Shown here: positions 14,090 to 47,860 of the stretch, one piece after another
Numbering within the stretch: position 1 is the stretch's first letter
Layout: each line of letters starts with the position of its first letter
Source of the DNA: an uncultured Hungatella sp.
GTDB lineage: Bacteria; Bacillota; Clostridia; Lachnospirales; Lachnospiraceae
Direction: 5' to 3'
Assembly (NCBI GenBank): GCA_949879025.1
Contig: CATLBO010000008.1
Span: forward strand, 1-53,391
Length of the DNA stretch: 53,391 bases
Program-made: the position numbers and the translations under genes
The notes under the pieces: model-generated
What the model saw: the letters and a program-made list of their open reading frames with translations, nothing else
What the model was told of the DNA's origin: nothing
The model's database searches: none

Positions 14090-14122
14090 CCTGAATCCGC
14101 TGCCGAACAGGCGGATTCAGGT
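14090..14122 (+). terminator. Hairpin after aspA
   Basis: CCTGAATCCGC pairs perfectly with GCGGATTCAGG around a 10-nt loop, 10 nt after the aspA stop. The downstream T run is weak (GTTTGCC). The hairpin forms the left part of a dispersed repeat copy. Confidence 0.55.
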
Positions 14123-14189
14123 TTGCCAAATGTGCCCGCCAGACTTTCATATGTGATAGTACGTCTGATGCCGGGTGCATGCAGGTTTA
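14091..14189 (+). repeat. Dispersed ~108-bp repeat, copy A (divergent left part)
   Basis: The core from TGCCAAATGTG through CGCCAGACTTTCAT to GCATGCAGGTTTA matches copies at 32635-32742 and 47752-47860. The right end (GGTTTA) contains the stop codon of the CAP-domain gene, so the element abuts that gene's 3' end exactly. The left part has diverged but keeps a hairpin. Confidence 0.75.
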
Positions 14190-15131
14190 ATATGTAAATA
14201 ACTGAACCCAGTATTTCACACCGTTGGAGCCTTCATAAAATCCTACGCCGATTTTTGTGTAACTTCCATTAAGAATGTTTGCTCTGTGGCCCTGGCTGTT
14301 CATCCATCCATCCATTACCTCCTGGGCCGTTCTCTGACCATATGCAATATTCTCTCCGCTTCCCCGGTATTTTACTCCATTTTCATCTAAAGCCGTGTTG
14401 TAGTAGCTCCCATTAGGACGCGTATGGGAAAAGCTGCTGGAAATCTCCTTTGCCCTGACTGCAGCAGCAGATGCCAAATCCGAAGCCTCTGTTACTGACG
14501 GCAATCCCATCTTGGCCCTCTCTTCATTCACCAGGCTTATTACCTGCTGCATGTAAGAGTTTTCCGGGTTCTGAGTCCCTGGATTCTCGGTTCCTGGATT
14601 CTCAATGCCCGGATTCTCAATGCCCGGATTCTCAATGCCCGGATTCTCAATGCCCGGATTCTCAATGCCCGGATTCTCAATATCTGGGCAGTCAGGTGTT
14701 GTCGGGCAGTTCCATGAACCGGAACCGTCAGGGATTGTGGGACAGTTCCATGGGCCGGAACCGTCAGGGATTGTAGGACAGTTCCATGAGCCGGAACCGT
14801 TAGGTGTTTCCGGACAGTTCCATGGAATAAATCCGTTAGGCGTCAGCAATGTATTTTCATCTCCGGGGCAGTTGGGTATAAGGGGATTCTCCAGCGTTCC
14901 CGGAAGCGTTGCTCCAAAAGATCCGTTCCAATCTCCCAGGCATCCATTGCTTCCTCCTGTCGGTGTTACCATCTGCAATATATCATTCAGAGAATATCCG
15001 TTCCTTGCAGATACCCCGTTGCTGCAGTTTCCGCCCATAACATAGGCTCTCACCGCCGCCTGAGATGTCATCGTTGTCATTCCTGTCATCGCTGTTGCTG
15101 CTACTGCAGCGTATAATGCCAATCTCTTCAT
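14187..15131 (-). CDS. Secreted CAP-domain (SCP/YkwD-like) protein with repeat linker
   Basis: A 314-residue exported protein. The signal peptide covers about residues 1-25. A linker (about 95-190) holds copies of a ~15-residue unit built on GSGSWNCPTIPD and then about six copies of the pentamer ENPGI. The C-terminal CAP domain (about 195-314) has NEERAKMGLPSV, SSSFSHTRPNGS, SGENIAYGQRTAQEVMDGWM and SQGHRANILNGSYTKIGVGF, including the typical His, Glu and His positions. CAP proteins of this type bind or process cell-wall or lipid ligands; the role is unknown here. The linker probably spans the wall. The stop codon sits on a repeat boundary. Confidence 0.88.
   Translation of the reverse strand: MKRLALYAAVAATAMTGMTTMTSQAAVRAYVMGGNCSNGVSARNGYSLNDILQMVTPTGGSNGCLGDWNGSFGATLPGTLENPLIPNCPGDENTLLTPNGFIPWNCPETPNGSGSWNCPTIPDGSGPWNCPTIPDGSGSWNCPTTPDCPDIENPGIENPGIENPGIENPGIENPGIENPGTENPGTQNPENSYMQQVISLVNEERAKMGLPSVTEASDLASAAAVRAKEISSSFSHTRPNGSYYNTALDENGVKYRGSGENIAYGQRTAQEVMDGWMNSQGHRANILNGSYTKIGVGFYEGSNGVKYWVQLFTY
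14585..14685 (-). repeat. 15-bp tandem repeats encoding ENPGI pentamers
   Basis: The unit GGATTCTCAATGCCC (plus strand) recurs in perfect or near-perfect register and encodes the flexible linker of the CAP-domain protein. Copy number is likely to vary between strains by slippage. Confidence 0.85.
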
Positions 15132-15302
15132 AGTATCCTCCTGTCTGTTACAAATATTTTACATTTCTGTTACAAAATAATATTATCATACAGAACCTGG
15201 GAATTCCATAGGGAAACACTGGTCATAATGGCGGCATTTTCCTGACCTTGAAAATCGTGCCACGGCTTTATGCATTGAATTATTATTAAGGAAAACTATG
15301 GA

Positions 15303-15331
15303 TTGACACAAAAATCCCTACCTATTATACT
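15303..15331 (+). promoter_or_regulatory. Promoter of the EIIB-ROK fusion gene
   Basis: TTGACA (15303-15308) and TATACT (15326-15331) are separated by exactly 17 bp, ~44 bp before the start codon. Confidence 0.75.
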
Positions 15332-15374
15332 AATTTTAGTAGCACTATACTTTCGGTATAAGGGGGATTTTTAA

Positions 15375-16808
15375 ATGGGAGACTCATCAGGCAATATTTT
15401 GATCGATCAGTTCAGACAATGGGTTCTGACCCGAACAAGCCCGAATTACAAGCTTTTTGTAAGCGAAAAGGATGATAATGTGATTGTTATTGAAACCAGT
15501 TACTGCCAGGGCGAGGTTACCTTCTTTCCCATGAACATTATTCAGCTTTCTGTGCTGAACCTGGTTACTAACCGTCATGTATTCTACCTGCATTTCCAGA
15601 TGCATACTCTGGAACACGCCATGAATCTGTTTGGCGAGATGCTGGAATGTGTTCAAAAGCTGACTGCCAAGCCACCTGTCCGCGTTCTCTTATCCTGCAC
15701 CAGCGGCCTGACCACCGGATTTTTTGCACAGAAGCTAAACGAATCCGCACAGCTCCTTTCTCTGGATTATGAGTTTTCCGCTGTTTCCTACGGAAATTTG
15801 TACCAATCAGCCAGTCAGTATGATATTATCCTTCTGGCTCCTCAGATATCTTACATATATGATACGGCCCGGAAAATTCTTCACGACAAAAAGGTCTGCA
15901 AAATACCGCCTAAAACTTTTGCCACTTATGATGTTCGGGCCGTATTCACAGATCTGGAGCCGCTGCATCAGCCCACCATGTCCCACAACAGGGCCTATCC
16001 TGGCAAGCTTCCTTTAAAACAGCAGATTAAGCCTCACGTTAAAATTCTGACCATCGGGCTTTTAAGTGAGGACAAGCACTATCTGTTTACTTCCAGAATC
16101 TATAATGAGCACAATGATATTATTTATGACGAGGTCAGTATAAAATCGCGAATTTCCCTGGAAGATATATACGATCTCTGTGATATGGCCTTTGCTATTT
16201 ACCCTGATATTCAGCTGACTGGGCTTTCCATGCCGGGAATTATTGATGAGGGGCGCCTTACGCTTCTCACACAGGGATTTGATGAAAGCAATATCCTGGA
16301 GTGCCTGTCTAAAAAATATTCCCGCAAGTTTATTTTAAGCAACGATGCTAACTGTATTGCCGTAGGCTATTATTCTTCTCAAGATCAGTATCTCTCGCCG
16401 TCCCTCCTGTTCCAGCCTTACATCGGTTCCGCCGGAGGAGTGGGCAGTATCTGCAACGGGCGGCTTATTGAGGGGTATAAACATGTTGCAGGCGAAATCC
16501 AGTATCTGCCTGCCAACAGCAAAGTCAGCCGCTCTTCCCTGTGTCTTACTCCAGAGGGCGCTTTGGCCTGGGTGGCACAGTCCATTGTATCATTGATCTG
16601 TATTTTGGGGCCGGATGTCCTTCTTCTTTCCTCCCGTCTCATTGTACAGACTGATGAACTGATACGGGAAATCGGAAAATATATTCCTACCAAATATATT
16701 CCGGATATTATTCAGCTTCGTGAAGTAAAAAACTATATGCTTCTTGGGCAGATGATTTTATGTACAGAAGAACTGGAAGCACATGACTCAGAACAGGCCC
16801 CTGCCTGA
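15375..16808 (+). CDS. PTS EIIB-like / ROK-like fusion protein
   Basis: A 477-residue cytosolic protein in three parts. Residues 1-100 are an unrecognised domain. Residues 102-187 match the lactose/cellobiose EIIB fold: VRVLLSCTSGLTTG with the candidate phosphocysteine Cys108, then YDIILLAPQISYIYDTARKI. Residues 219-470 are ASKHA/ROK-like (LTGLSMPGIIDEGRL, ILSNDANCIAVGYY, GSAGGVGSI, HVAGEIQYLP). The ROK part lacks the N-terminal DxGGT phosphate loop and the CxCGxxGC zinc motif, so kinase activity is doubtful. It may read sugar or PTS state. It has its own promoter and terminator; no PTS genes are adjacent. Confidence 0.75.
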   Translation: MGDSSGNILIDQFRQWVLTRTSPNYKLFVSEKDDNVIVIETSYCQGEVTFFPMNIIQLSVLNLVTNRHVFYLHFQMHTLEHAMNLFGEMLECVQKLTAKPPVRVLLSCTSGLTTGFFAQKLNESAQLLSLDYEFSAVSYGNLYQSASQYDIILLAPQISYIYDTARKILHDKKVCKIPPKTFATYDVRAVFTDLEPLHQPTMSHNRAYPGKLPLKQQIKPHVKILTIGLLSEDKHYLFTSRIYNEHNDIIYDEVSIKSRISLEDIYDLCDMAFAIYPDIQLTGLSMPGIIDEGRLTLLTQGFDESNILECLSKKYSRKFILSNDANCIAVGYYSSQDQYLSPSLLFQPYIGSAGGVGSICNGRLIEGYKHVAGEIQYLPANSKVSRSSLCLTPEGALAWVAQSIVSLICILGPDVLLLSSRLIVQTDELIREIGKYIPTKYIPDIIQLREVKNYMLLGQMILCTEELEAHDSEQAPA

Positions 16809-16820
16809 CTTATGACAGGC

Positions 16821-16864
16821 AAACAGGCAGCTGCAGATATTTTCAGCCTGCAGCTGCCTGTTTC
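16821..16864 (+). terminator. Terminator of the EIIB-ROK gene
   Basis: AAACAGGCAGCTGCAG (16821-16836) pairs perfectly with CTGCAGCTGCCTGTTT (16848-16863), followed by a T-rich stretch. Confidence 0.85.
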
Positions 16865-16900
16865 CGTTCTCTTTTACCCTGCTCTTCTGCGATTCGGCTT

Positions 16901-17182
16901 TTACAGTTCTTTACCTTCCTGCTTTCCTGTCCCCGCTTTTGAGTACAGTGCTTTTACCCCCACTCCAGGAAGCCTGCCCAGTTTTCCTGATAATGCGCTG
17001 ATGCTGTTTACAGGCGCGTCAATTACAACGCTTATAATATTAATTCCCCTTTTTTCATATGGCAGTCCCATACGCCCAATAATAAACTGCCCATATTCAT
17101 GAAGCAATCCATTTACTTCCCCTGCCATCTGTTTATCTTCCACTATGATTCCAATTACTGCAATTCTGGTTTCCTGTTCCAT
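16901..17182 (-). CDS. TM1266-like iron-only hydrogenase system regulator (putative)
   Basis: A 93-residue ACT-like/ferredoxin-fold protein starting ETRIAVIGIIVEDK, with QFIIGRMGLPYEKRGINII and KLGRLPGVGVKALYSK. The pattern is that of the TM1266 family, often found next to [FeFe]-hydrogenase maturation genes and called a putative hydrogenase system regulator. No hydrogenase gene is within this window, so the family role is only suggestive here. It has a GAAGGAGAAGG ribosome site and stands alone on the minus strand, converging with the EIIB-ROK gene. Confidence 0.82.
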   Translation of the reverse strand: MEQETRIAVIGIIVEDKQMAGEVNGLLHEYGQFIIGRMGLPYEKRGINIISVVIDAPVNSISALSGKLGRLPGVGVKALYSKAGTGKQEGKEL

Positions 17183-17287
17183 TTTCCCTTCTCCTTTTGG
17201 CTCTTTTCCTAATTGTAAAACCTTAAAGCCGGAAAATCAATCGGACAATGGGATGAATCATGAAAAATATTTCTGCTGCAAGATCAC

Positions 17288-17328
17288 AAAAATACCGGTT
17301 CCGACTTTAGTGTCTGAACCAGTATTTT
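17288..17328 (-). terminator. Terminator of the first tRNA-Lys gene
   Basis: On the minus strand AAAATACTGGTTC pairs with GAACCGGTATTTT (with wobble), followed by T residues, directly after the tRNA 3' end. Confidence 0.75.
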
Positions 17329-17331
17329 ACA

Positions 17332-17404
17332 TGCGCCTTCAGGGACTCGAACCCTGGACAAATAGATTAAGAGTCTACTGCTCTACCAACTGAGCTAAAG
17401 GCGC
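17332..17404 (-). tRNA. tRNA-Lys (anticodon CTT), copy 1
   Basis: A 73-nt cloverleaf including the discriminator A. The acceptor stem GCGCCTT/AAGGCGC is a perfect 7 bp and the T arm is CAGGG-TTCGAGT-CCCTG. The anticodon stem GTAGA/TCTAT frames the loop CTCTTAA, placing CTT at positions 34-36. CCA is not encoded. It is identical in sequence to the copy 2.6 kb away. Confidence 0.95.
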
Positions 17405-17435
17405 TTTTATTAACTTGTCTTTTGGAACTTTCAAT

Positions 17436-17464
17436 ATTATACGTCCAATAGCTCCAAATGTCAA
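17436..17464 (-). promoter_or_regulatory. Promoter of tRNA-Lys copy 1
   Basis: On the minus strand TTGACA (17459-17464), 17 bp, and TATAAT (17436-17441) form a near-consensus promoter ~32 bp before the tRNA. Confidence 0.85.
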
Positions 17465-17476
17465 GCAGTTAATTTA

Positions 17477-17527
17477 TTCTGCCGGAAAAAATATTAAAGA
17501 ACCTGTTCTTCCGGCAGAAGTTTTTTT
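17477..17527. terminator. Hairpin after the DUF6709-like gene
   Basis: TTCTGCCGGAA pairs perfectly with TTCCGGCAGAA across a ~21-nt loop. The plus strand ends in TTTTTTT. It follows the minus-strand gene that stops at 17526 and may act in both directions. Confidence 0.6.
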
Positions 17528-18638
17528 ACAGCTGTGTAAATTCTCCGGCTCCCTCTCTCATTGCCGGATTATATTTTAAATCCAAAAATTGGCTGAAGTT
17601 TTTGCCATACATCTTTTCCAGTTCAGAACTATACCCCACAACCATATGGGGCTGCTCTTCCACGTATATCTTTAGGGCCTCCTGGGTATCTTTCTCAGAC
17701 AAGGCAATATGGAACACCTTTTTTTCCTTCGTAAACAGACGCATCTCACTTACGCTGTTTCGTCCGGTCCGCCTGAAGTAATAGCCCCACACCAGTTCTT
17801 TATTGGACAGAATCTGGGCAACATTGCCCTGCATATATACAGTCCATTTTTTCCCCAGCCATACGGTTTTATCAATAAGGTGCGCCTGTTTAAAATCTTC
17901 CTCAATAGCTGCTATGGAAGTCAAGCTGTCTTTCTGCAGATACTTCTGAATGTTTTTCATGTATGCATTGCCGAAAAAGCCCATGGTACTGATAATGGCA
18001 AACACCAAAAGACCGGCTGCCAAAGCCATCAAAACCCAAAATAAAGGAGCATTTAATCCGCCGATATTCTTCGTATCCAGTTCATAGAAATACATCTTGT
18101 CAAATTCTGACTCTGAAATGTCCAGCTTTCCAAGAGCCTGCCTGAAATACATCTCCGTCTGAGCATCCATAGGCGTCCAGACGCCTTTGACCGTAACCGG
18201 GTCCGGAGGCGCCACCTGGCCTGTCTCATCATTCCAGTAGGCAAATGCCTCATCTATTTTTGAAGCCATCTCCTGCTGTCTGCTCTTGTTCAGGTAAATG
18301 CTGTAAAAATACCATATGGATGCCTCTTTCTCATAATCATCTACAGACTGGAATGTGAGATAGCTGTATCCGTTTACACTGGTGCTGCTTCCTCCATACT
18401 TTCTTGTGGTGGTTGTGGTATGCTCTATGTAGTCATACAGAAAATATTCCGCATCAATTGTTACATACTTCCCTTTATAAGATTCCGGGTCTGCTGTAAT
18501 ATCCAGCCTTGTGGGTCCGGTTATCACATCAAATATTGCAAATTTTGTGACTGCCAGCAGTACAACAATGCCGATAACAGAAAATATAACTCTTAACATG
18601 TTGGACTTTTTCGCTTTTTTCTTAAGTGTTTCTACCAT
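17526..18638 (-). CDS. Membrane protein of unknown function (DUF6709-like)
   Basis: A 370-residue protein with two membrane helices: one at about 14-36 (MLRVIFSVIGIVVLLAVTKF) and one at about 198-220 (LFWVLMALAAGLLVFAIIST). The loop between them (about 160 residues) is probably outside the cell, starting GPTRLDITADPESYKGKYV. The C-terminal ~150 residues look like a cytosolic domain (KTVWLGKKWTVYMQGNVAQI, then ELVWGYYFRRTGRNSVSEMR), perhaps PH-like. It may belong to the DUF6709 group; I am not sure of that name. It is monocistronic, with a GGGGG-type ribosome site. Confidence 0.7.
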   Translation of the reverse strand: MVETLKKKAKKSNMLRVIFSVIGIVVLLAVTKFAIFDVITGPTRLDITADPESYKGKYVTIDAEYFLYDYIEHTTTTTRKYGGSSTSVNGYSYLTFQSVDDYEKEASIWYFYSIYLNKSRQQEMASKIDEAFAYWNDETGQVAPPDPVTVKGVWTPMDAQTEMYFRQALGKLDISESEFDKMYFYELDTKNIGGLNAPLFWVLMALAAGLLVFAIISTMGFFGNAYMKNIQKYLQKDSLTSIAAIEEDFKQAHLIDKTVWLGKKWTVYMQGNVAQILSNKELVWGYYFRRTGRNSVSEMRLFTKEKKVFHIALSEKDTQEALKIYVEEQPHMVVGYSSELEKMYGKNFSQFLDLKYNPAMREGAGEFTQL

Positions 18639-18815
18639 GGTTTTCCCCCCATACTATTCTCTATTTTTTGGACGGGTACACTGCCTGTCCTTATCTTATT
18701 ATAAATATTTTATTTCTTTTCGTCAATAAGCTCCTTTTTCCACCCTAAGCTTATCTGCTGTTTACTGGTATCCGGCAAACTGCAGGCTATGCTGCCATCT
18801 AAAACCCCATGCCCC

Positions 18816-19697
18816 TTACTTTTCATATTTTAAAAAGTAATGCAAGGCTCCCAGCAGATTGGCATCATTTCCTTTTTCGCATGCTACAATTTCAGGCTGA
18901 AGATACTCCATCTGCTGTCCCTTTACCAGTTCTTTATATGTTCTTCTAATATCTTCCATAATCTGGGGATTTCCGCTGATTCCGCCGCCGATAGCGATAA
19001 TCTCCGGATCATATGCGAACTGAACATTTACACATCCCACAGCCATGTAATGGAGAAATTCCTTTACCGCAGCGTCCGCTTCTTTGACGCCCTGTCCGGC
19101 TAATTCCATCAGTTCTTTCCCGTCCACCTGTTTCCCGCAAGCCTTACTATATCTCCTTGCCTCCTGCTCCAGGGTAAAATAACTCCAGCAAAGCAAAACC
19201 CCGTCTTTTATACCTCCCATAGGGAAATTGCCAATCTCCGCTTTATTCATGGTAGTTCCCGGATACAGCTCCCCGTTCTCTATTACCGCTCCGCCTACGC
19301 CGCTTCCCACAATAACAAATGCTATGTTTTTATGCTTTTTCCCCACTCCCAGCCATGCCTCTCCTAAAGCTGCAGCATTGGCATCATTAACCATGGAAAC
19401 CTTTTTAGAACCGCATCTTTCGGAAATCAACTTTTTCAGAGGACATTTATGAAGCTGTTCCACTGCGCTGATGCCATAAATAATCCCCTCTTCGCTGTGG
19501 ACTTCCCCTGGAAAACTGCAGGCGATTCCTTCTACTGGCTGTACGGTTTTATAAATAGCCTCTACCTGATCCAAAAAGCCCTCCAGAGTTTTCCCCACTG
19601 CCGTCTTTCCGTTCTCCAACATAACTCCGTTTTCGTCACACACAGCATATTTAATGCTTGTTCCCCCTGTATCCAGACATAAATATTTTTTTGCCAT
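18816..19697 (-). CDS. ROK family sugar kinase
   Basis: A 293-residue ROK kinase. The phosphate loop CLDTGGTSIKYAV is intact, as are VNDANAAALGEAWLG (catalytic Asp region), VIVGSGVGGAVIENG and ELYPGTTMNKAEIGNFPMGG. The usual CxCGxxGC zinc motif after the EIG segment is absent, as in some BglK-like beta-glucoside kinases. It most likely phosphorylates glucose or a glucoside. It stands alone between two tRNA-Lys genes; no transporter or glycosidase is adjacent to name the sugar. Confidence 0.88.
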   Translation of the reverse strand: MAKKYLCLDTGGTSIKYAVCDENGVMLENGKTAVGKTLEGFLDQVEAIYKTVQPVEGIACSFPGEVHSEEGIIYGISAVEQLHKCPLKKLISERCGSKKVSMVNDANAAALGEAWLGVGKKHKNIAFVIVGSGVGGAVIENGELYPGTTMNKAEIGNFPMGGIKDGVLLCWSYFTLEQEARRYSKACGKQVDGKELMELAGQGVKEADAAVKEFLHYMAVGCVNVQFAYDPEIIAIGGGISGNPQIMEDIRRTYKELVKGQQMEYLQPEIVACEKGNDANLLGALHYFLKYEK

Positions 19698-19884
19698 TAA
19701 TTATATTTCCCCCTTTATTCACCTTATCTATTTTACTTCTGCTTACATTGTACAAGCTTGATAAAGTCCTGTCAAATCTTTGTTGTAAATGAATCTGTGC
19801 AGCCTTTTCCAGATATGTAAGCTTACAGCTCCGCCATATAAGCGTCTGAAGCTTCCGGCTTCACGGTTAAAGAATTTCCACAGC

Positions 19885-19930
19885 AAAAAAGCACCGGCCC
19901 CAATGCTCCTTGTCATCAAAACCAGTACTT
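19885..19930 (-). terminator. Terminator of the second tRNA-Lys gene
   Basis: On the minus strand AGTACTGG pairs with CCGGTGCT (two wobbles), followed by TTTTTT. It is analogous to the terminator of the first tRNA copy. Confidence 0.65.
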
Positions 19931-19933
19931 TGC

Positions 19934-20006
19934 TGCGCCTTCAGGGACTCGAACCCTGGACAAATAGATTAAGAGTCTACTGCTCTACCAACTGAGCTAA
20001 AGGCGC
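19934..20006 (-). tRNA. tRNA-Lys (anticodon CTT), copy 2
   Basis: The 72-nt body is identical to copy 1 at 17332-17404, with the same discriminator A, the loop CTCTTAA and no encoded CCA. Flanking sequence differs apart from a short CCAGTA match on the 3' side, so the two copies have separate promoters and terminators. Confidence 0.95.
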
Positions 20007-20049
20007 TTTCTGTTATTAACTTTTATGTTGTCTCCGCAACACAAACATT

Positions 20050-20078
20050 ATACTACCGCATGATACGTCAAATGTCAA
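20050..20078 (-). promoter_or_regulatory. Promoter of tRNA-Lys copy 2
   Basis: On the minus strand TTGACA (20073-20078), 17 bp, and TAGTAT (20050-20055), ~44 bp before the tRNA. Confidence 0.7.
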
Positions 20079-20215
20079 CCCTTATTTTTCACAAATTTTC
20101 CATAATTCCTCATGGGCTGTTACAATTCGGCAGCCTTCGCCAAATAGTGCGCCTATCCGCCTTTTTAATTCCATACGATTCAGAAGCATCTTTCGCTTTC
20201 CGCTCTATTATGCAT

Positions 20216-20252
20216 CCTCCAGGCTAACCGCCGCATGCGGTTAGCCTGGAGG
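20216..20252. other. Perfect 15-bp inverted repeat after trx
   Basis: CCTCCAGGCTAACCG (20216-20230) and its exact complement (20238-20252) flank a 7-nt loop, 36 nt past the thioredoxin stop. There is no T tract on either side, so it is either a terminator variant or an mRNA 3'-end stabiliser. The rest of the 20007-20287 gap holds the tRNA promoter and nothing else I can identify. Confidence 0.7.
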
Positions 20253-20287
20253 GCAGACAGACAGCAGCTATAAAACTCCTTGCTGCC

Positions 20288-20605
20288 TTACAGCATTTCC
20301 TCAATCGCAGCTACCAGGGTTCTCTTGTCCTGCATTCCTATCATCTTCTTAACAGCTTTCCCGCTTTTAAACACCAAAAACGTAGGAATTGACATAATGC
20401 CATATTCCATGGCAATATCCTGATTCTCATCCGTATTGATCTTGCCTACTTTTGCCTTTCCTTCATATTCCTCCGCCAATGTCTCTACCACCGGAGCCAT
20501 TGCCTTGCATGGGCCGCACCAGTCTGCATAGAAATCCACCAGCACAGGAATCTCAGACTGATAAACCTCTGTCTCAAAGTTGCTGCTTGTTAGTTTCATC
20601 GCCAT
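20288..20605 (-). CDS. trxA: Thioredoxin
   Basis: A 105-residue thioredoxin. The redox site is ADWCGPCKAMAPVV, the cis-Pro loop is YGIMSIPTFLVFKSGK, and the N terminus MAMKLTSSNFETEV leads into VDFYADW. It reduces protein disulfides in the cytosol, normally with thioredoxin reductase (not in this window). An AGGAGG site lies directly before the start. It sits 12 nt downstream of a 65-residue lysine-rich protein and probably shares its transcript. Confidence 0.97.
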   Translation of the reverse strand: MAMKLTSSNFETEVYQSEIPVLVDFYADWCGPCKAMAPVVETLAEEYEGKAKVGKINTDENQDIAMEYGIMSIPTFLVFKSGKAVKKMIGMQDKRTLVAAIEEML

Positions 20606-20617
20606 ATCGTTTTCCTC

Positions 20618-20815: not shown

Positions 20816-20846
20816 TTCTATTCCGGACCCTGGCCCATTGATCCCT

Positions 20847-21491: not shown

Positions 21492-21670
21492 AAGCCTTTC
21501 CTCCGGAAAATCATTATTCTCCCATTCTAACACCCAAATCAATTCTTTTCAAGTTCTATCTTTTTCTTACATTTTTAGTAACAACATCAAATTTTACGTG
21601 CATAAATTGTCAAATAATAGTATAATAAGAATATTGACTGCACGGCACTTCTATTACTAAGGAGGTTTTT

Positions 21671-22609: not shown

Positions 22610-22650
22610 CCGCTGAATTTAAACGCAAAAACAGTAAAAAGCTTTCAAGG

Positions 22651-23529: not shown

Positions 23530-23535
23530 TAACAG

Positions 23536-31577: not shown

Positions 31578-31792
31578 TACTTTTTTAAACAAACTTACAT
31601 AAAGTTTTTTGCTATTTTTGTGCATATTTTTCTGTGCAGAAATTCACGATATTTATTCTGAAAATATCGAATCCTTAAGGTAGATCTGTGCACTTGCTGC
31701 ACTATCCATACTGTGCCGGAATACCGCTTTTGCATTCCGTATAACCCCTTTCATTCATGGGGGTGCCGGGAAAGCGCTATTGAGGCTGCTAT

Positions 31793-31898
31793 GAAAATCC
31801 CACCGCCAATAGACAGTTTCTGTTCAGGGATGCCAGCTGCGTCCGCCAGACCTTCATGTGCGGAATGTGTCCGAAGCTTGGGCCATAGCAGGGGCTAA
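31793..31898 (+). repeat. Dispersed ~108-bp repeat, copy D (divergent)
   Basis: The copy matches the others in AAAATCCCACCGCC, TTCAGGGATGCC, GTCCGCCAGACC and TTCATGTGCGG. The right end lies at the trmO stop codon. It is the most diverged copy but keeps a small hairpin, CGGA-ATGTG-TCCG. The flanking 31462-31790 region holds the adhE promoter and a short AT-rich hairpin, with no gene. Confidence 0.65.
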
Positions 31899-31899: not shown

Positions 31900-32595
31900 T
31901 TAAAAACTGTCTGCTGTATGACAGCTGACAGGGATCACGTCACATACTGTCAGCTTGTTTTCAATGACCCGGAATTTTATGTCAAACCCTCCGAAGGCTA
32001 CTCCATAGATCCGTTCATTATCCTGAACATAGGCAGGGCGGGGATCTTGAGCCAGCACTCCTATGATTGCCGCTCTTTTTTCCCTGGGATACCGTTCCAA
32101 GAGATGTTCCGGAAATTCCACTTCCAATTTATGGGCCATGGTTTCTCTGGTATATCCCTCTGATGCATCAGGACGGCAGTCTGTAAACGGAATGTAGGGC
32201 TTTATATCATAAATGGGGGTCTTATCCATCAAATCCGCCCCTGAAACTTGTATTACCATCCCCAAATGCCTATCTGCCGCTATACGCTCCAATCTGACAC
32301 AGGAAAGGCCAATATCATTAGGCCGAAACGGTGATCGGGTGGCAAATACTCCCATTCTTTTCTTTCCACCCATCCGGGGAGGCTTTACTGTAGCGGACCA
32401 GCGGTCTTTCCCTGATTGGGAAAACTGCCACAAAAGCCAGATATGAGAAAACTCCTCCAGCCCTCTCAATGCTGACGGATTCCGATACTCCGGTTCAAAT
32501 ATAATCGTCCCCTGCAGTTCCTTTACCAAACCGCTCTGCCGCGGTATGCCGAACTTATCCGGGAAGTCTGTGCGGATATGGGCTATGATCTTCAT
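31900..32595 (-). CDS. trmO: tRNA (N6-threonylcarbamoyladenosine37-N6)-methyltransferase TrmO
   Basis: A 231-residue TsaA/VirR-type protein that methylates t6A37 in tRNA-Thr using SAM. The N-terminal TsaA domain has KIIAHIRTDFPDKFGIPRQS, EFSHIWLLWQFSQS, the very typical RMGGKKRMGVFATRSPFRPN, and YDIKPYIPFTDC. The C-terminal part (about 160-231) is the usual extension (DPRPAYVQDNERIYGVAFGG). The start is the ATG at 32595 with GGAGGAAT; a longer in-frame extension is made of repeat sequence and is rejected. It is bracketed by two same-direction copies of the dispersed repeat. Confidence 0.94.
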   Translation of the reverse strand: MKIIAHIRTDFPDKFGIPRQSGLVKELQGTIIFEPEYRNPSALRGLEEFSHIWLLWQFSQSGKDRWSATVKPPRMGGKKRMGVFATRSPFRPNDIGLSCVRLERIAADRHLGMVIQVSGADLMDKTPIYDIKPYIPFTDCRPDASEGYTRETMAHKLEVEFPEHLLERYPREKRAAIIGVLAQDPRPAYVQDNERIYGVAFGGFDIKFRVIENKLTVCDVIPVSCHTADSF

Positions 32596-32634
32596 AGGAT
32601 TCCTCCTCAATAATGAAGCCGTAATGCTGAGATT

Positions 32635-32742
32635 ACTTAAAAGTCCGCCGCCGATTAGGCGGCATGCATTCAGGGATGCCAAATGTGCACGCCGGACTCT
32701 CATGTGCGGCAGTACGTCTGCTGCCGGGCACATGCTGGTTTT
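32635..32742 (+). repeat. Dispersed ~108-bp repeat, copy B
   Basis: A full-length copy. The left hairpin is GCCGCC-GATTA-GGCGGC, then TTCAGGGATGCCAAATGTG, CGCCGGACT, TCATGTG, a right hairpin GCAG-TACGT-CTGC, and the end CATGCTGGTTTT. It lies ~40 bp upstream of trmO. By eye it is roughly three-quarters identical to the copy at 47752-47860. Confidence 0.85.
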
Positions 32743-39566: not shown

Positions 39567-39584
39567 AAATCATATCTGGATAAT

Positions 39585-41369: not shown

Positions 41370-41718
41370 TTCACCCTCCTTTTTGGCATTATGTACTTTC
41401 AGTGCTTTTCTGTATCCAATCCTTCATGAACGATTCTTTGTCATATATGCACAAATTTATAAGGTATGAATTATACATATGTCAGTTAAATTGCATGCAT
41501 CTGACAAAAAATCAGCCAATACTGCAGATATCGGAGACTCCGAAAGTATATGGTTTACACAAATTTTCTTTAAGGCCGCAAAACCCCTTCTTCTGTTTTT
41601 TAACTATATCAAAACCTAACTGATTGGTCAAGTATGGAATTAAAAAACCATCTATATAAGGTAATTCTATCTGATTCCCTGCAGGCCATGATATTGCTTG
41701 TTATCTGCCAGACAGGAA
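41370..41718. other. Non-coding AT-rich gap upstream of the chemoreceptor
   Basis: About 350 bp without a credible gene. Only the AGGAGGGTG ribosome site of the chemoreceptor is clear. I could not find a flagellar sigma-28 promoter (TAAA-N15-GCCGATAA) in it. Confidence 0.5.
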
Positions 41719-41745
41719 CGGTTTCCGGCGTTATACCGGAAACCG
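41719..41745 (-). terminator. Hairpin after the flavin reductase gene
   Basis: CGGTTTCCGG and CCGGAAACCG form a perfect 10-bp stem, 39 nt past the stop codon. The T tract is weak (CCGTTCCTGTC on the minus strand). Confidence 0.6.
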
Positions 41746-41783
41746 CTGTTTGCTGTAGTTCTTTATTCGATTTGGAGTAGAAA

Positions 41784-44384
41784 CTATTGGTTGTCAGCTG
41801 TAATCGCTTTGGCCGCTGTACGTCCGGAAACAATGATTTCCGTGATCGCATTACCGCCCAGCCTGTTGCCGCCATGGATACCGCCTGTAACCTCGCCGGC
41901 TGCATACAAGCCTTCGATTGCCTTGCCGCTTTCATCCAATACATGGCGCTCCGTATCTACTACCACGCCGCCCATGGTGTGGTGGGTGGAAGGAGCCATC
42001 AGACGGATAGTAAGTGCCGTACCTTCCAATTTGTAAGAATCAACATTGTAGCTTCCATCTGCATTCTTCTCAACATCTCCGATAGTTCTGGAAGCAATGG
42101 CTTTTCCTACTTCCTCAAATTCGCCCTGGCCCATAACTGCCTTGTCATACTTCTCAATGGTTTCCAGAACCGTCTTAGCATCCGCTGCCACTCCGATCTC
42201 TTTAAACAGGGCATTCAATTCTTCTTCATTTGCGTTCCTTCTGTAATACCTGCCTTCAAAATCGCCTTCCTTGGCAAGCTGAATTGGGCCTGGAATCATC
42301 TCGGACGCATTATAGATCTCCATAAATACGCCTTTCGTTCCATTTACCTCAATGCCGTTCTTAAACTCTCCAAGGGAAAGTACATCCCTCTCAGAACCCT
42401 CGTCTACAAATCTCTTGCCGGTAGTGGGGTTAATATATACAGCATAGTTACCGCCGCCAAATGCCAGGTTTCCGTTGTCAACCCAGCTAATAGGCATCAT
42501 CTGGGTCCAGCCTTCGCCTGTAACAGCCGCTCCCGCTTCCTGAGCCATCTCAATGCCGCTGCCTGTCAGAGAACTGCGGTTTGTAGTCTTAGTAGCCGTG
42601 GTTAAATATTCAGGGGACCAGTAGTTATTGGTATCAACAACTTTCTGAATGTTGGCTGCATAACCGCCAGTTGCCAGAATCACGCCTTTGGCTGCCTTAG
42701 CAGTAACCTTCGTGCCGTCATACATGGTAGCTTTTACGCCTGTTACCCGGCCATCCTCAATAATCAGTTCTTCTGCAGTAGTTCTGGTCATGATCTGATT
42801 CTTCTCGTCTTTCTGCAGGAATTCCGTCATAGGAGCCATGAAATATGTTCCCCAGCGGCCGCCATACTCTTCAGTCTTGCCGTCTCCGTCAGCATCAACG
42901 TTTGCACCAATAAACTCATTCTCTCTGTACCAAAGCGCACCGATCAGCGTAGGCTGCGTGTCTTCCACGAAAGTGGAACCCATAGCCTCAAGCCAAGGCT
43001 TAATATCCTGGCCGTCTTCAATAAATTGTTTTACAAGATCAACATTGCCATAAATCCACTCTGTACCGTCGGCGCTCTGACGAAGCCCTCCATAGTATGT
43101 CTGGAAAATGTGCAGATTTAATGTAGAGAACAGTGTCAGTTCGGTTTCTGAAACGCCAGAATCCAGTTTGGGCTGCGCCCAGTCAAGATATGCCTTGATC
43201 TCTTTCTTCAAAGCCTGCAGCGTAGGCAGATAGTCTGCATGTACGCCATGTTTGGAAAGCTCAGCTGCATCACCTGCCACATACTCATGGTCTTTGTAAT
43301 AATCTGCGTCAAACTCTTCCTCAGACCAGTTATAAATCATTTTCAGCTCATTGATACAGCCATTTACAGATTTTACTTTATTATATGTATTGCCGTCGAA
43401 ACCGACACCGGTGGCGGCATCAGGATCTTTCTCATCCCATACCAGATAAGGCATAACGCTCTGATACTGTCCGCCGGATACCAGAGTGTTGCCTCCGATC
43501 TCAGCATTTTTCTCAATTACAAGTACTGTATTGCCGTCCTGAGCAGCCTGTGCAGCAGCGCTAATGCCTGCTCCGCCTGCTCCTACGATTACTACATCCC
43601 AGGTATCCTCAATGGGTTCCTGCGCTTTCACCTCAATGGTGTTGGCAGCAAACTGTGAAGAATTGGTAACGTCGGCTTCTTCCGCTGCAGCATTCACGGC
43701 AGCTTTCAGCGCACGGCTGGAGAATGTAGCTCCAGACACGCCGTCAACTCCTGTACCGTTTGCTTCAATCATCTCAGGAATCAGAATGTCAAAAGCGATA
43801 TCGCCTACATGCTCGGTTTCTTTGCTGGAAATGACCTCAATAGCTGTAACTGCCTTATCATCAAATGTTACACTGACTTCCACAGGTCCGTTGTATCCAT
43901 CAGCGCTGCCTGTATACGTTCCGGCAGTAAATGCCAGTTCGCCGTCTGACGGCGCTTCCTCGCCTTTTGCCTGACTGATGGCACTTGCAGCAGCTTTCTT
44001 AACTGCATCTGAGGTAATGGTGGCGCCGGCTACCGCATCAATCTCCCCGGACTGGGCGTCCAGAATCGCCTGTTTTAAGGTGTCAAAAGCAGCTCCTCCC
44101 ACAGTAGGCGTTTCATCCGCCCCTTCAATGGCCACATCGGTAATCTCGCTGTCATTGACTGTAACGGTTACCGTAACCGGACCGCCAAATCCCTGTTCAG
44201 AAGCAGAGTATGAACCTGCGGTATACAGTGATTCCGCAGCCTGGGTCTGGGCTTCAGTTGTCTCCGGCGCCTTTGATGATTCTGGTGCAGCAGTTGTTGT
44301 CGAAGCAGAAGATCCCCCGGAGCAGGCTGTCATCGAAACTGCAGTTACAACGCTAACTGTGGTTAATAAAACTTTGCGTCTCAT
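41784..44384 (-). CDS. Extracellular multi-flavin fumarate-reductase-like lipoprotein
   Basis: An 866-residue surface lipoprotein with lipobox MTAC (Cys21). Two FMN-binding domains follow (about 53-137 and 150-236). Each ends in a GAT motif (AVAGATITSDAV; GVSGATFSSRAL) of the kind flavinylated on Thr by ApbE. Then comes an FAD_binding_2/succinate-dehydrogenase-like flavoprotein (about 262-860; VVIVGAGGAGISAA, MGGVVVDTERHVLDESG, GEVTGGIHGGNRLGGNA). This architecture is typical of flavin-linked extracellular respiratory reductases that use fumarate, urocanate or related acceptors. The acceptor is not determined. The start follows AGGGAGG. Confidence 0.9.
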   Translation of the reverse strand: MRRKVLLTTVSVVTAVSMTACSGGSSASTTTAAPESSKAPETTEAQTQAAESLYTAGSYSASEQGFGGPVTVTVTVNDSEITDVAIEGADETPTVGGAAFDTLKQAILDAQSGEIDAVAGATITSDAVKKAAASAISQAKGEEAPSDGELAFTAGTYTGSADGYNGPVEVSVTFDDKAVTAIEVISSKETEHVGDIAFDILIPEMIEANGTGVDGVSGATFSSRALKAAVNAAAEEADVTNSSQFAANTIEVKAQEPIEDTWDVVIVGAGGAGISAAAQAAQDGNTVLVIEKNAEIGGNTLVSGGQYQSVMPYLVWDEKDPDAATGVGFDGNTYNKVKSVNGCINELKMIYNWSEEEFDADYYKDHEYVAGDAAELSKHGVHADYLPTLQALKKEIKAYLDWAQPKLDSGVSETELTLFSTLNLHIFQTYYGGLRQSADGTEWIYGNVDLVKQFIEDGQDIKPWLEAMGSTFVEDTQPTLIGALWYRENEFIGANVDADGDGKTEEYGGRWGTYFMAPMTEFLQKDEKNQIMTRTTAEELIIEDGRVTGVKATMYDGTKVTAKAAKGVILATGGYAANIQKVVDTNNYWSPEYLTTATKTTNRSSLTGSGIEMAQEAGAAVTGEGWTQMMPISWVDNGNLAFGGGNYAVYINPTTGKRFVDEGSERDVLSLGEFKNGIEVNGTKGVFMEIYNASEMIPGPIQLAKEGDFEGRYYRRNANEEELNALFKEIGVAADAKTVLETIEKYDKAVMGQGEFEEVGKAIASRTIGDVEKNADGSYNVDSYKLEGTALTIRLMAPSTHHTMGGVVVDTERHVLDESGKAIEGLYAAGEVTGGIHGGNRLGGNAITEIIVSGRTAAKAITADNQ

Positions 44385-44594
44385 TTTGCCTCCCTCTTCC
44401 TGCCAGAATGGCTTCTGCAGCCTCTGGCTTTTCATTTAGAATATTTGTTTAATAAACCATATATATTAAACCACATATTAGGCAAAATTTCAATAATATT
44501 TTGGGGGACAGATGTCTTGGCGGAGACGATCTGTACAGCCTGACTACTGCACCAATGGCTGCCTTTCTACACTAAAAAGACAGTGGACTCCCGC

Positions 44595-45221
44595 TTAATT
44601 CTTCATCTTACAATATGCCACTGCCGCTAACGTACTCACCAGCGTTGCTGCAATTGCCGGTGCAATTATCCCCGCCGGATTCACACTCCCATACTGCTGC
44701 CTGTAAGCAATCATATTCACAGGTATCAACTGCAGAGAAGATATATTCAATATTAAAAACGTACACATTTCACTGCTTGCAACACGTTCCCCATTTCTTC
44801 CTGCTGCCTTATTATCGCTTAAATACCCCGGATTTCCCCGCTCCTCCTCCAATCTCGCAAGTTCTTCCATGGCCCGAAGCCCTGCCGGCGTAGCCGCCCA
44901 CCCCAGTCCCAGAACATTGGCAATTATATTGGTTGCAATGGCGTCTTCTGCCGGATGCCCTTTTGGCAGGTTGGGGAACAGAAACTTAAGAACCGGCTTC
45001 ATCCTTTTAGTGATTTGCTCAATCAGCCCTGCCCGCTGTCCAATCTCCAAAATCCCCGTCCACAGCGCCATTACCCCAAGCATAGTAATGCATAGGCTTA
45101 CAGCTTCCTTGGCAGAGTCAAGCACGCCTTGAGTAACCTGACTCATGGTTCCGTGGAGTGCACCCCATAAAATTCCTACAAGTACCATAAACGCCCAAAG
45201 ATAATTTAACATTTTCCACAC
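44595..45221 (-). CDS. spmA: Spore maturation protein A
   Basis: A 208-residue membrane protein of the nucleoside-recognition/Gate family. It begins MWKMLNYLWAFMVLVGILWG, with the Gate core ITMLGVMALWTGILEIGQRAG and NIIANVLGLGWAATPAGLRA, then SLQLIPVNMIAYRQQYG. In Bacillus SpmA works with SpmB in spore core dehydration. SpmB normally follows in the same operon; here the next minus-strand gene is the flavin reductase, so spmB is elsewhere or lost. The gene supports a spore-forming host. Confidence 0.9.
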   Translation of the reverse strand: MWKMLNYLWAFMVLVGILWGALHGTMSQVTQGVLDSAKEAVSLCITMLGVMALWTGILEIGQRAGLIEQITKRMKPVLKFLFPNLPKGHPAEDAIATNIIANVLGLGWAATPAGLRAMEELARLEEERGNPGYLSDNKAAGRNGERVASSEMCTFLILNISSLQLIPVNMIAYRQQYGSVNPAGIIAPAIAATLVSTLAAVAYCKMKN

Positions 45222-45307
45222 CAGACAAAAGCCAATCTTTTCCCCATCTTATGCAGAATAACCACCGCTTATACCAAAGATATTAAAAAGCAGAGCCCTG
45301 TACCGTC

Positions 45308-46060
45308 TTAATGACGGCCGCCGTCATGTCTGTGCCGCCTCTGTCTTTGGCCGCCTGGCTTTCTGTCTTCCCCATAGACTGCCTCCCGCCCTGCCTCTAT
45401 TAATAAGGCATCTATTAAATCCTGTATTTCTCTCATGGTCATACTCTGTATTTCATCTGCAGTTATGCCAGGGCAAAGCGTCTGCAGTTCTAAGAATGCC
45501 CTGTACTTTCCGCAGGACATGCCATGTTCATGGGCTTCTGCCACATCGCTGGAATCAGCAGAATAACAATAAGTGTTTCTATGGCCTGCTGCGCAGGATT
45601 GCATATCGGAAAGTATCCTTACTGATTGACCACCTTGAGATTCAATGACCGTGATCGTTGCCACCTCTCCTTTGGACAACAGATCTCTGACTCTCTCGCT
45701 TTCTAATATCTGGCTGACTGCCTCCTCATAACTCAAATGCCTGATATTAAGCATCTCTGCCAGCTCTCTCCCATCATCATTATAAGTGTCCACTGCAATC
45801 ACCCGGTCTAACCGGTTAATGCCTAATTCAATGGATGGATTCACATCAATGCTGATTTTTGCCGTGGGGGTAAAATAGAACCAGCGGCTGCTAATAAACA
45901 GAAACAGGAAACAGGCCGCAGCAGACATTATCTGCTGATAACCGGACAGCCGCCTTCTGGCGTATCCTTTCGTTTTCTGCGCAAGAAATGTCCTGGTCTT
46001 ATCTTTTAATTCTTCCTCTGCCCGTATCTGGTCAAATGCTTCCTTTAACCTGTCATTCAT
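45308..46060 (-). CDS. RsgI-like anti-sigma factor
   Basis: A 250-residue single-pass protein. A cytosolic ~45-residue N terminus (probable sigma-binding part) precedes a membrane helix (about 44-62, IMSAAACFLFLFISS). The outside part has the RsgI hallmark KISIDVNPSIELGINRLDRV and NDDGRELAEML. The C-terminal tail includes AEAHEHGMSCGKYRAFLELQ and ends in a His/Arg/Gly-rich stretch. Its start overlaps the sigma gene by 8 nt, the usual arrangement for a sigma/anti-sigma pair. The outside domain may sense an extracellular signal. Confidence 0.85.
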   Translation of the reverse strand: MNDRLKEAFDQIRAEEELKDKTRTFLAQKTKGYARRRLSGYQQIMSAAACFLFLFISSRWFYFTPTAKISIDVNPSIELGINRLDRVIAVDTYNDDGRELAEMLNIRHLSYEEAVSQILESERVRDLLSKGEVATITVIESQGGQSVRILSDMQSCAAGHRNTYCYSADSSDVAEAHEHGMSCGKYRAFLELQTLCPGITADEIQSMTMREIQDLIDALLIEAGREAVYGEDRKPGGQRQRRHRHDGGRH

Positions 46061-46535
46061 ATCTTTCTTCTCCCAGCTTCTCCCTGAGCATCTGTTTCGA
46101 GCGTGTCAGGAGCGTGTAAACCGTGTTGACATTTTTGCCCAGAATCCGGCCAATCTGCGGAGCAGTATACCCTTCATAGTAATGGAGATATACTGCTTCC
46201 CGGTATTTATACGGAAGCGCCAGCACAGCTTCCAGAACTTCCCGGTTGTCCGGCGGCAAAGGTGCCGGCTGATCCATAACCTCATCCAGCGATACCACAT
46301 GGCTGCGGAAAAAACTTTTCAGCAAGTCCCTGCAGGCATTTATCGTTACTCGGATAAACCAGGCTTTTTCATGTTCTTCACTTTCAAAGGAAACAGAACT
46401 AAGGACATATTTCAAAAAAACAGTTTGAAATATGTCCTCGGTATCAGCATGATTTTTTAAATGTATCATGCAAAGCCGCCGAACAGTATCGGAATACTGC
46501 TCAATGGCTCTGTTTACCTCCTGTTCGCTTCGCAT
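46053..46535 (-). CDS. ECF-type RNA polymerase sigma factor
   Basis: A 160-residue sigma factor with region 2 (HADTEDIFQTVFLKYVLSSV, EEHEKAWFIRVTINACRDLL) and region 4 (LALPYKYREAVYLHYYEGYT, APQIGRILGKNVNTVYTLLT). It directs RNA polymerase to a dedicated promoter set. Its anti-sigma factor overlaps it downstream; a Ca-binding secreted protein gene lies 18 nt upstream on the same transcript. A possible autoregulated ECF-type promoter lies at 46938-46966. Length is normal for the group. Confidence 0.92.
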   Translation of the reverse strand: MRSEQEVNRAIEQYSDTVRRLCMIHLKNHADTEDIFQTVFLKYVLSSVSFESEEHEKAWFIRVTINACRDLLKSFFRSHVVSLDEVMDQPAPLPPDNREVLEAVLALPYKYREAVYLHYYEGYTAPQIGRILGKNVNTVYTLLTRSKQMLREKLGEERYE

Positions 46536-46553
46536 GGTTAAGCTCCGTTCCTG

Positions 46554-46889
46554 TTAACGTCCGTGTCTGTTGCGTCCCCCATGACAGCCATATCCCTGGC
46601 CTCTGCCTGGGCATGTATTGTTGGCATAGTTATCGCAAATACCATCATTGTCGACATCCGTATAATACACGCCATGACAGGTTCCGTCACTGCCTATGCC
46701 GCAGTTATCGCAGATTCCGTCACCGTCCTGATCCACAAAGACGCAGGACGAACAGGCATAATCGCAGACTCCATCGTTATTAGCATCATAATAATGGCAG
46801 CCTGATCCATGGCCTGCTGCAAATGCTTGAATTGTTCCAAAACTAAATATCAATACTGTGGACAAAATACCTGCTAACTGTTTTTTCAT
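46554..46889 (-). CDS. Small secreted Ca-binding-type Cys-rich protein
   Basis: A 111-residue exported protein. The signal peptide ends near AFAAG (about residue 25). The mature part has three or four copies of an Asp-rich calcium-loop-like unit (DANNDGVCDYAC, DQDGDGICDNCG, DVDNDGICDN), reminiscent of dockerin or thrombospondin-type loops. Cysteines flank each unit, and a Gly/His/Arg-rich tail follows (GYGCHGGRNRHGR). The start is the ATG at 46889, 9 nt after AAGGAG; an earlier in-frame ATG overlaps that site. It is the first gene of the sigma/anti-sigma operon and may be its output or signal. Confidence 0.82.
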   Translation of the reverse strand: MKKQLAGILSTVLIFSFGTIQAFAAGHGSGCHYYDANNDGVCDYACSSCVFVDQDGDGICDNCGIGSDGTCHGVYYTDVDNDGICDNYANNTCPGRGQGYGCHGGRNRHGR

Positions 46890-46937
46890 GTTCGTCATCT
46901 CCTTAAATAATTGGCAGCCTTTTCCGGCTTCAATTTA

Positions 46938-46966
46938 AATACGATTGAGAAAGACGAATCCATTCA
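46938..46966 (-). promoter_or_regulatory. Possible ECF-type promoter
   Basis: Minus strand: TGAATG (46961-46966), 17 bp, CGTATT (46938-46943), ~49 bp upstream of the secreted-protein start. It resembles the -35 TGAAC / -10 CGTM pattern used by many ECF sigma factors, which would give autoregulation. Confidence 0.35.
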
Positions 46967-46972
46967 AAAATT

Positions 46973-47743
46973 TTAAATATGGAATAACTTTTGAGCAGAG
47001 GCATCATCGAGGAACAGCCTCCAGTCCGGATGCGTTTTTAAAATAGTTGCAGGAATCACAGGTGAGACCGGCTGAGTAACCGTATTATAAACAGCCTCTG
47101 CCTTTACACCGTGGGGAACAGCAGAAACAATGTGCCGACAGGCCATAATCTGTTTTACGCACATGGTAACAGCTTGCTTCGGAACCTGATCCAAGTCGGC
47201 AAACCATCCCTCCCCCACCTGCTGCCTTTTGCAGCGCTCATCTAAAGTTACAATCTTGTATGCTTCTTTTGTATTGAAATCCGCCGGCGGGTCATTAAAT
47301 GCAATGTGGCCGTTTTCCCCGATTCCTATAACTCCCACATCCACAGGAGCTTTAAGCAGCTCCTTTGACACGGATTCAATATTAGCTTGTATGTCTCCTT
47401 CACCATCCACGAAATGGGCGGCCTTCAAGGATACTTTGCTTACAAAACGCTCTTTTAAATACTTACGGAAGCTGGCTCCATGGCTTATGGGAAGCCCTAC
47501 ATACTCATCCAGATGGAACATCTCAACCTGTTCCCAGGCAACATCCATTTTTACCAGAGCATCCAGAGTTTCAAACTGGGATGCGCCTGTAGAAAGGATC
47601 ATACGGGCATACCCCTGCTGTGAAATTGCCTGTGTCAGAAGCTGTGCTATGGCAGCAGCGGCATGTCCTCCCAGTTCCTGGGGAGTGGGCGATACGTTAA
47701 TTGTTATATTTATATGTGGCGGCGTCCCCGCAGCCGGGCGCAT
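46973..47743 (-). CDS. Glucosamine-6-phosphate deaminase-like protein
   Basis: A ~245-256-residue sugar-phosphate isomerase of the NagB family. Conserved parts are RMILSTGASQFETLDALVKM, WEQVEMFHLDEYVGLP, the catalytic region GVIGIGENGHIAFNDPPADF, and QAVTMCVKQIMACRHIVSAV. It would convert glucosamine-6-P (or galactosamine-6-P) to a ketose phosphate and ammonia. The only ATG in frame (47743) lies inside a repeat copy, giving a foreign N terminus (MRPAAGTPPH) without a good ribosome site. The native start seems to have been replaced, so expression is uncertain. Confidence 0.8.
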   Translation of the reverse strand: MRPAAGTPPHINITINVSPTPQELGGHAAAAIAQLLTQAISQQGYARMILSTGASQFETLDALVKMDVAWEQVEMFHLDEYVGLPISHGASFRKYLKERFVSKVSLKAAHFVDGEGDIQANIESVSKELLKAPVDVGVIGIGENGHIAFNDPPADFNTKEAYKIVTLDERCKRQQVGEGWFADLDQVPKQAVTMCVKQIMACRHIVSAVPHGVKAEAVYNTVTQPVSPVIPATILKTHPDWRLFLDDASAQKLFHI

Positions 47744-47752
47744 GCAGGTTTA
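47711..47752 (+). repeat. Dispersed repeat, partial copy C1 (right end only)
   Basis: It contains the right hairpin (GCGG-CGTC-CCCGC) and the terminal GCATGCAGGTTTA, and runs directly into the head of the next full copy, so the two are in tandem. Confidence 0.75.
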
Positions 47753-47860
47753 CTTTAAAAGTCTCGCCATCGATTAGGCGGCATGAATTTAGGGATGCCA
47801 AATGCACCCGCCAGACTTTCATGTGTGGTGGTGCGTCCGCTTCCAGGCGCAGCAGGTTTA
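47752..47860 (+). repeat. Dispersed ~108-bp repeat, copy C2
   Basis: A full-length copy starting ACTTTAAAAGTC, with GATTAGGCGGCATG, TAGGGATGCCAAATG, CCGCCAGACTTTCATGTG, the hairpin GTGG-TGCGT-CCGC, and the end CAGCAGGTTTA. The start codon of dctP follows 2 nt later. Confidence 0.85.

Follow-up and report, generated by a model that had tools for sequence, protein, structure and literature searches.

The window analysed here is the whole stretch of 53,391 nucleotides formed by positions 1 to 53,391 of contig CATLBO010000008.1, from an uncultured Hungatella sp. (assembly GCA_949879025.1). It carries several copies of a repeat with a unit length of about 109 bp (family 1), together with a relative of a longer class (family 2), which were located by R1, a model built from 24 copies, by iterated nhmmer or by alignment, as follows:

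14085..14188, plus strand: copy A (R1, 69 bits, E 3.3e-14; sequence)
31656..31783, plus strand: relative of family 2 (class of about 160 bp, 128 bp here), directly left of copy D (iterated nhmmer, 112 bits)
31788..31895, plus strand: copy D, diverged (R1, 44.2 bits, E 8.3e-8)
32633..32741, plus strand: copy B, nearest to the consensus among the window copies (R1, 122.7 bits, E 4.9e-28)
47711..47751 (about), plus strand: C1, a partial right end, head to tail with C2 (alignment and sequence only, no R1 call alone)
47752..47859, plus strand: copy C2 (R1, 109.4 bits, E 1.3e-24)

A previous sequence-only reading had proposed a repeat family at this locus, and this was confirmed, since R1 recovers four full copies, all on the plus strand; as also noted there, neither a gene nor a transposase was seen inside the copies. 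The uniform orientation that it described holds within the window, whereas genome-wide the repeat occurs on both strands, with a bias relative to the neighbouring genes. The copies had moreover been described as touching a stop or a start codon with their ends. In copy A, the sense-side TAA (14187-14189) is the stop codon of the ORF 14187-15131 (minus strand); the model end of copy D falls 4 bases short of the stop codon (31900-31902) of a minus-strand ORF whose end is at 31900; and the end of copy C2 adjoins an ATG, a putative start, at 47863. In copy A, the left half is a long inverted repeat in place of the usual one, with arms at about 14087-14100 and 14111-14124 (AAACCTGAATCCGC / GCGGATTCAGGTTT, window 14087-14124), right behind the stop of the ORF 12677-14080. 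Elsewhere in the window, the ORF 14187-15131 contains 15-bp and 36-bp tandem repeats (14549-14834), two tRNA genes on the minus strand (17332-17407 and 19934-20009) are identical over 76 bp, and a 28-nt inverted repeat, 89% complementary and with a loop of 18 nt, lies at 51095-51168.

Consensus, ends and fold of the repeat

The consensus from the genome to which the window belongs (own genome, G000) reads TTACTNTAAAAGTCC(C), the hairpin GCCGCC-GATTA-GGCGGC, ATGAATTCAGGGATGCCAA, a longer hairpin ATGYGCCCG...CGGGCGCAT, and GCAGGTTTA(C). Among 37 singletons, the TT at the left boundary is conserved to 86 and 97% and the right end GG(T)TTA to 68-100%, fading beyond it (C 59% and T 68% at the next two places). 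The motifs are ordered TTAC-TNTRAAAG-hairpin on the left and hairpin-TGCAGG-TTTAC on the right; TTAC and AAAG are separated by 4 nt, and the last base of AAAG is a G in only about two thirds of the copies. The element is bounded by two TTAC-like words, which read GTAA in the sense of most neighbouring genes. In a set of 59 singletons, the word was TTAT at 3 left and 9 right ends, the ends did not show the TTTAT motif of bcr1-bcr3, and the left and right words were uncorrelated, a comparison of low power. No terminal inverted repeat was found (score 5.0 against 5.0 ± 1.1 in shuffles) and, by that test, the repeat is not a MITE.

Covariation was evaluated on 131 copies from 100 loci, and it exceeded both shuffles and slides for the left hairpin and for the outer stem of the right half, although the alignment was fitted to R1, whose structure already contains the former and a portion of the latter, which favours both. 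The left hairpin GCCGCC/GGCGGC has standard pairs in 94% of cells and 24 double changes against 3.7 in shuffles, 20 of the 24 being confined to two of its six pairs. In the outer right stem ATGYGCC/GGCGCAT, 87% of the cells pair, with 19 double changes against 9.7, while the stem's counts of double-changed pairs and of pair types stay within the shuffles. The sequence-only reading had described two hairpins, with compensatory changes in an inner right one; the left hairpin stands, the outer right stem covaries, and the inner hairpin is unsupported, with pairs in 68% and 9 double-change cells, compared to 11.1 in shuffles. Of five folds, three were beyond 2.8 s.d. of shuffles and two were unremarkable. 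At the gathering score, Rfam returned only two tRNAs across the window, and relaxed searches with one copy and with three loci turned up nothing of relevance, so that the repeat has no Rfam match.

Two other interpretations of the ends were considered and dropped. A 7-bp duplication TTACTNT was suggested by the second base after TTAC, which agrees on both sides above shuffles (p 0.002), but identical copies in G226, a genome of another genus, keep TCT on the left while their right flanks differ; the agreement could stem from remnants of lost tandem copies. One G226 locus (L307) has a 7-bp direct repeat, TTTACCG, outside the left TTAC and at the right end, which the TTAC model leaves unexplained. 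In integron attC sites a G is expected before TT, and this reading was abandoned because the empty sites described below have no G at that place. A paper on 5S rRNA expansion (PMC7812874) is, as far as its accessible part goes, unrelated.

Abundance and distribution

In the own assembly (3.79 Mb, 83% complete), R1 gave at least 121 matches at E ≤ 0.1 and at least 115 at E ≤ 0.001, which are lower bounds with 150 of the 1411 candidates scored, and a core pattern derived from the copies matched 56 times, compared to 0 with the reversed control. Among 61 relatives, own genome included, R1 matches were present in 8 of the 26 genomes of the genus and absent from the remaining 18 and from all 35 relatives outside it; under stricter filters, the counts per genome in the 8 matching relatives went from 2 to at least 63. 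In the wider family Lachnospiraceae, 6 of 200 genomes matched (own included), and the distribution across other Lachnospiraceae is patchy. An exact core pattern was also searched in genome contigs, where at least 96 stretches matched; among the 80 matches listed, most bear Lachnospiraceae titles (for instance Hungatella, Enterocloster and Caccovicinus), and some are titled only Bacterium (D16-56, 1XD42-76), Clostridiaceae or Eubacteriales. The same pattern had no match in viral contigs, nor did one copy, searched by blastn, in plasmids and phages. No earlier description of the repeat was found in the titles and abstract starts of the open-licence literature, and the family seems to be undescribed so far, though of a familiar kind.

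Placement relative to genes

Genes were called with a simple purpose-made scorer. Of 174 arrays left after deduplication, 135 have a called gene on either side with no overlap; in 76 of these, both neighbours lie on the strand opposite to the element, in 25 both lie on its strand, and in 34 the strands are mixed; hence, in gene sense, the element is mostly TAAACC...AGTAA. Among the 254 distinct arrays of a larger set, 56 are within 6 nt of the stop of a sense gene, compared to 7 at the antisense end, and the claim that the copies sit exactly at gene boundaries is therefore true only of this minority. GTAA words outside the elements coincide with such stops in 77 of 3123 cases, or in 99 of 875 (11%) if only those outside coding sequence are taken, which leaves a stop-adjacent excess of about twofold over the GTAA background; in addition, the element's own TAA can itself create stops. 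We thus ascribe the placement at stop codons largely to a GTAA-like target and to tolerance.

Empty sites show that the repeat is mobile

The earlier reading had called for empty sites to be sought in related genomes. A search of the own genome with the flanks of about 12 copies from the close species G010 gave ten orthologous places, five of which are cleanly empty in the own genome (L240/L284, L241/L283, L246/L286, L248/L291 and L250/L285). Each empty site has one TTAC-like word, where the occupied counterpart has one at both ends, some of them mutated; at L250/L285, TTAT is found at both ends of the element and in the empty site. The pair L244/L290 would fit the arrival of a mixed array at that site, and at L251/L287 a remnant of the right end is kept in the own genome. 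Further differences occur at the sites L243, L251, L252 and L253, and L243, L252 and L253 have no clean reading.

The target at L248/L291 is the upstream gene's own GAG-TAA stop, which is uninterrupted in G003, G007 and G022 (3 of the 15 relatives' loci aligned), the remaining relatives having a different ending or no alignment there; since the stop is intact in these three genomes, two of which (G007 and G022) carry no copy, this target is not a scar. At L246/L286, GTAA is found at the place in one of nine relatives' loci (G006), whereas the relatives were uninformative at L241/L283 (four) and at L240/L284 (one). At sites that have no informative outgroup, recombination between the end words could have removed an element and left a picture like that of an insertion, and the assemblies of G000, G010 and G226 are drafts. 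The repeat is mobile, and we consider it very probable that it is a family of short (about 109 bp) non-autonomous mobile DNA elements, as the sequence-only reading had suggested for one of its two options; the occupied and empty site pairs, the head-to-tail arrays, the patchy distribution and the identical dispersed copies all argue for it. The other option, a structured RNA module, is possible but not needed: it has no Rfam match, and the covariation fits RNA or folded single-stranded DNA alike.

Turnover at shared sites and growth of arrays

To compare the occupants of shared sites, 91 own copies were used, and eight sites had both flanks among the G010 loci, which had been picked mostly for carrying copies; 40 of the 48 rows of the flank comparison were dropped, being a tandem array (L013) that matched itself as flank. 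At one shared site, the orientation of the element is opposite in the two species; at one, family 1 is found in the own genome and family 2 in G010; at one, G010 has an extra family-2 unit head to tail; at another, family 1 is missing from G010, where part of a family-2 element is found instead, and a further site has no element at all in G010. The flanks of sites with another copy, the opposite orientation or family 2 in the two species are about 93% alike. Three sites have family 1 in both species, with elements 76, 75 and 70% alike, as in random pairs of own and G010 elements (median 74.5%, 95th percentile 82%), while their flanks are 91-97% alike over 150 bp at the first two and 93% at the third; at a fourth (L211/L128), the G010 copy is truncated and falls outside the comparison. 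Since the sites are shared but the occupants differ, independent insertion or exchange is indicated; a faster mutation of the element, as an alternative, would have to reach the level of random pairs.

Among the 18 full-length copies compared in G226, three are identical at different places and a fourth is identical until its contig ends, although two of the four run up to the end of a contig and may represent a single copy seen from either side; one of the three is in an array, beside a copy 96% alike. Of the 74 copies compared in the own genome, no two dispersed ones are more than about 90% alike, so that there was no recent burst there, whereas array neighbours reach 99%, so that arrays also grow by local duplication. 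Within an array, the units follow each other head to tail and meet at a TTAC-like word.

A second family and short forms

The relative of about 160 bp (family 2) gave 18 hits by iterated search in the loci examined, 16 after removal of duplicates and several of them partial. Like family 1, it has TTACTNTGAAAG on its left side and, ahead of the right end, the word TTTCATKYATGGYGGTGC, and the two families form mixed head-to-tail arrays; family 2 is also found in L244, L260, L269 and L274. With up to 2 mismatches, TTTCATKYATGGYGGTGC had 132 matches in G062 and 34 in G010, compared to 1 and 0 for the reversed control; some family-1 copies, chiefly those of G062, match it as well. L363 joins a left hairpin like that of family 2 to the right half of family 1. 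Mini forms, made of the left hairpin and the right tail only, occur in L240, L305 and L311, in two genera, and in L113 (5380-5450) the shared loop word is enclosed by the inverted ends CAGTAACCCCC...GGGGGTTACTG of a short unit, which is perhaps a minimal palindromic form. G062 (1XD42-76), with its 132 matches to the shared loop word, yet has no Y1 transposase match.

Search for the mobiliser and alternative explanations

The left end of the repeat resembles that of IS608, which inserts 3' to TTAC and has a guide AAAG 5' to the left hairpin, as given in the accessible part of PMC5934647, and the series TTAC-TNTR-AAAG-hairpin would thus place a cleavage site and a guide as in that element. A PATE- or REP-like element moved by an IS200/IS605 or RAYT (Y1 HUH) transposase would also agree with the lack of a terminal inverted repeat, the hairpins near both ends and the uncorrelated end words, as expected if one of them belongs to the element. 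On the other hand, PF01797 (Y1 transposase) had no match at E ≤ 0.01 in six carriers of the repeat (G003, G006, G016, G062, G064 and G150), although G016 is only 65% complete and a Y1 gene could be lost, or missed in draft assemblies. Y1 transposases are present in G000, G010, G015, G061, G063 and G226, and the flanks of nine of the 23 Y1 places, read by eye, did not show the ends of the repeat, with a motif filter that missed L325 and L328 and with L187-L198 left out; an nhmmer scan of L325-L328 gave a single match, a left-half fragment in L328. The 4-nt spacing between TTAC and AAAG is presumably shorter than that of IS608, and the imperfect conservation of the last base of the guide also speaks against this explanation, which we regard as doubtful. 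In the own genome, a canonical IS200 with its own ends (L181 1158-1910, C14) lies immediately beside two copies of the repeat in tandem.

A MITE-like remnant of a DDE transposon with a 4-bp TTAC target duplication would account for the TTAC-like word at both ends and the single one at empty sites, as with the TTAT of L250/L285; we find it improbable, because terminal inverted repeats are lacking, because the left and right words are uncorrelated (at low power), and because no gene-bearing copy appeared among 30 of the 57 right ends in G226. The left and right end pairs of the loci examined likewise held no gene-bearing copy, and there was no transposase among the 25 largest clusters of recurrent neighbour proteins; that neither a mobiliser nor a gene-bearing copy turned up also counts against the non-autonomous mobile element. 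Also improbable is a structured RNA with a function in operon spacers, as an attenuator or as a processing or stability element, for which mobility would be a side issue: the 76 of 135 arrays lying co-directional, in gene sense, between two genes, the covarying stems and the three strong folds would suit it, but its absence from 18 of the 26 genus genomes, the differences between species in the spacers occupied, the orientation flip and family exchange at one site, the two unremarkable folds and the lack of an Rfam match do not.

Proposed mechanism

For the non-autonomous mobile element, we propose that an enzyme supplied in trans would recognise the folded ends, with TTAC-TNTRAAAG before the left hairpin and TGCAGG-TTTAC after the right one, and join them to a TTAC-like target; the word would be either a target-site duplication or half target and half element end. 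Some arrays may be built by insertion at the terminal TTAC of a resident copy, and others by local duplication. With a target that is GTAA when read in gene sense, many insertions would directly follow a TAA stop and precede the ribosome-binding site of the next gene; at such a position they would do little harm, the element's own TAA closing the reading frame. It is also possible, as a tentative suggestion, that the repeats are the substrates of an undescribed transposition system, with an enzyme outside the Y1 and the DDE-with-inverted-repeat classes, in which folded gene-free units with shared ends and interchangeable interiors would use a GTAA target, often at gene ends, and one site would be open to different units and orientations within the divergence of two close species.

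For the Lachnospiraceae, which are common gut bacteria, this means a mobile element of small size that alters the spacers of operons and the vicinity of stop codons, with differences from one close species to another. The carriers with no Y1 match, including G062 (a strain record with no MAG label), open the question of the mobiliser to experiment, and the different occupants at shared sites offer a handle on the rate of the element.

Comparison with known systems

REPs are 20-40 bp long and end in GTAG, according to the part of PMC3733652 available. The repeat shares with REP/RAYT systems its nature of high-copy, non-autonomous intergenic hairpin DNA, but it is about 109 bp long, has TTAC-like ends in place of the GTAG palindrome, and occurs in carriers with no Y1 match. 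With IS200/IS605 elements, represented by IS608, it has in common the TTAC target, AAAG before the left hairpin and the absence of a terminal inverted repeat (PMC5934647, accessible part), and it differs in the six carriers with no Y1 match, in the spacing and in the TTAC-like word also at the right end. The repeat is neither a MITE, by the inverted-repeat test, nor a GTAG REP, nor a shown derivative of IS200/IS605.

Further systems are small mobile intergenic sequences. The enterobacterial RU-1 to RU-3, of 103-168 bp, belong to another phylum and are described as MITE-like in the available text of PMC2759123, whereas the repeat has no inverted repeat. In mycobacteria, the accessible part of PMC12548453 presents MIRU as small, apparently mobile and located at gene boundaries inside operons; there, insertion is at start codons and an ORF inside the element is coupled to the gene that follows, while our repeat has its sense 5' end at stop codons in a minority of cases and, as far as shown, no conserved ORF. 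In the Bacillus cereus group, bcr1 is a short interspersed intergenic repeat, of which one genome can hold up to 130 copies, frequently located in UTRs and between the genes of operons, and a short direct motif, TTTAT, is linked to its mobility (PMC6542083 and PMC3446304, in the parts accessible, which name no mobiliser for it). Judged by these descriptions, bcr1-bcr3 are similar to the repeat in their many copies, short direct motif and operon spacers, and differ in the motif (TTTAT instead of TTAC), in the bacterial family and in that bcr1 is called MITE-like, whereas the repeat has no inverted repeat. As in bcr1, MIRU and RU, we find dispersed gene-free copies of about 100-200 bp, with occupied and empty orthologous sites, and the best reading is that of a short, non-autonomous, bcr1/MIRU-like element that would be moved in trans by a separate enzyme.
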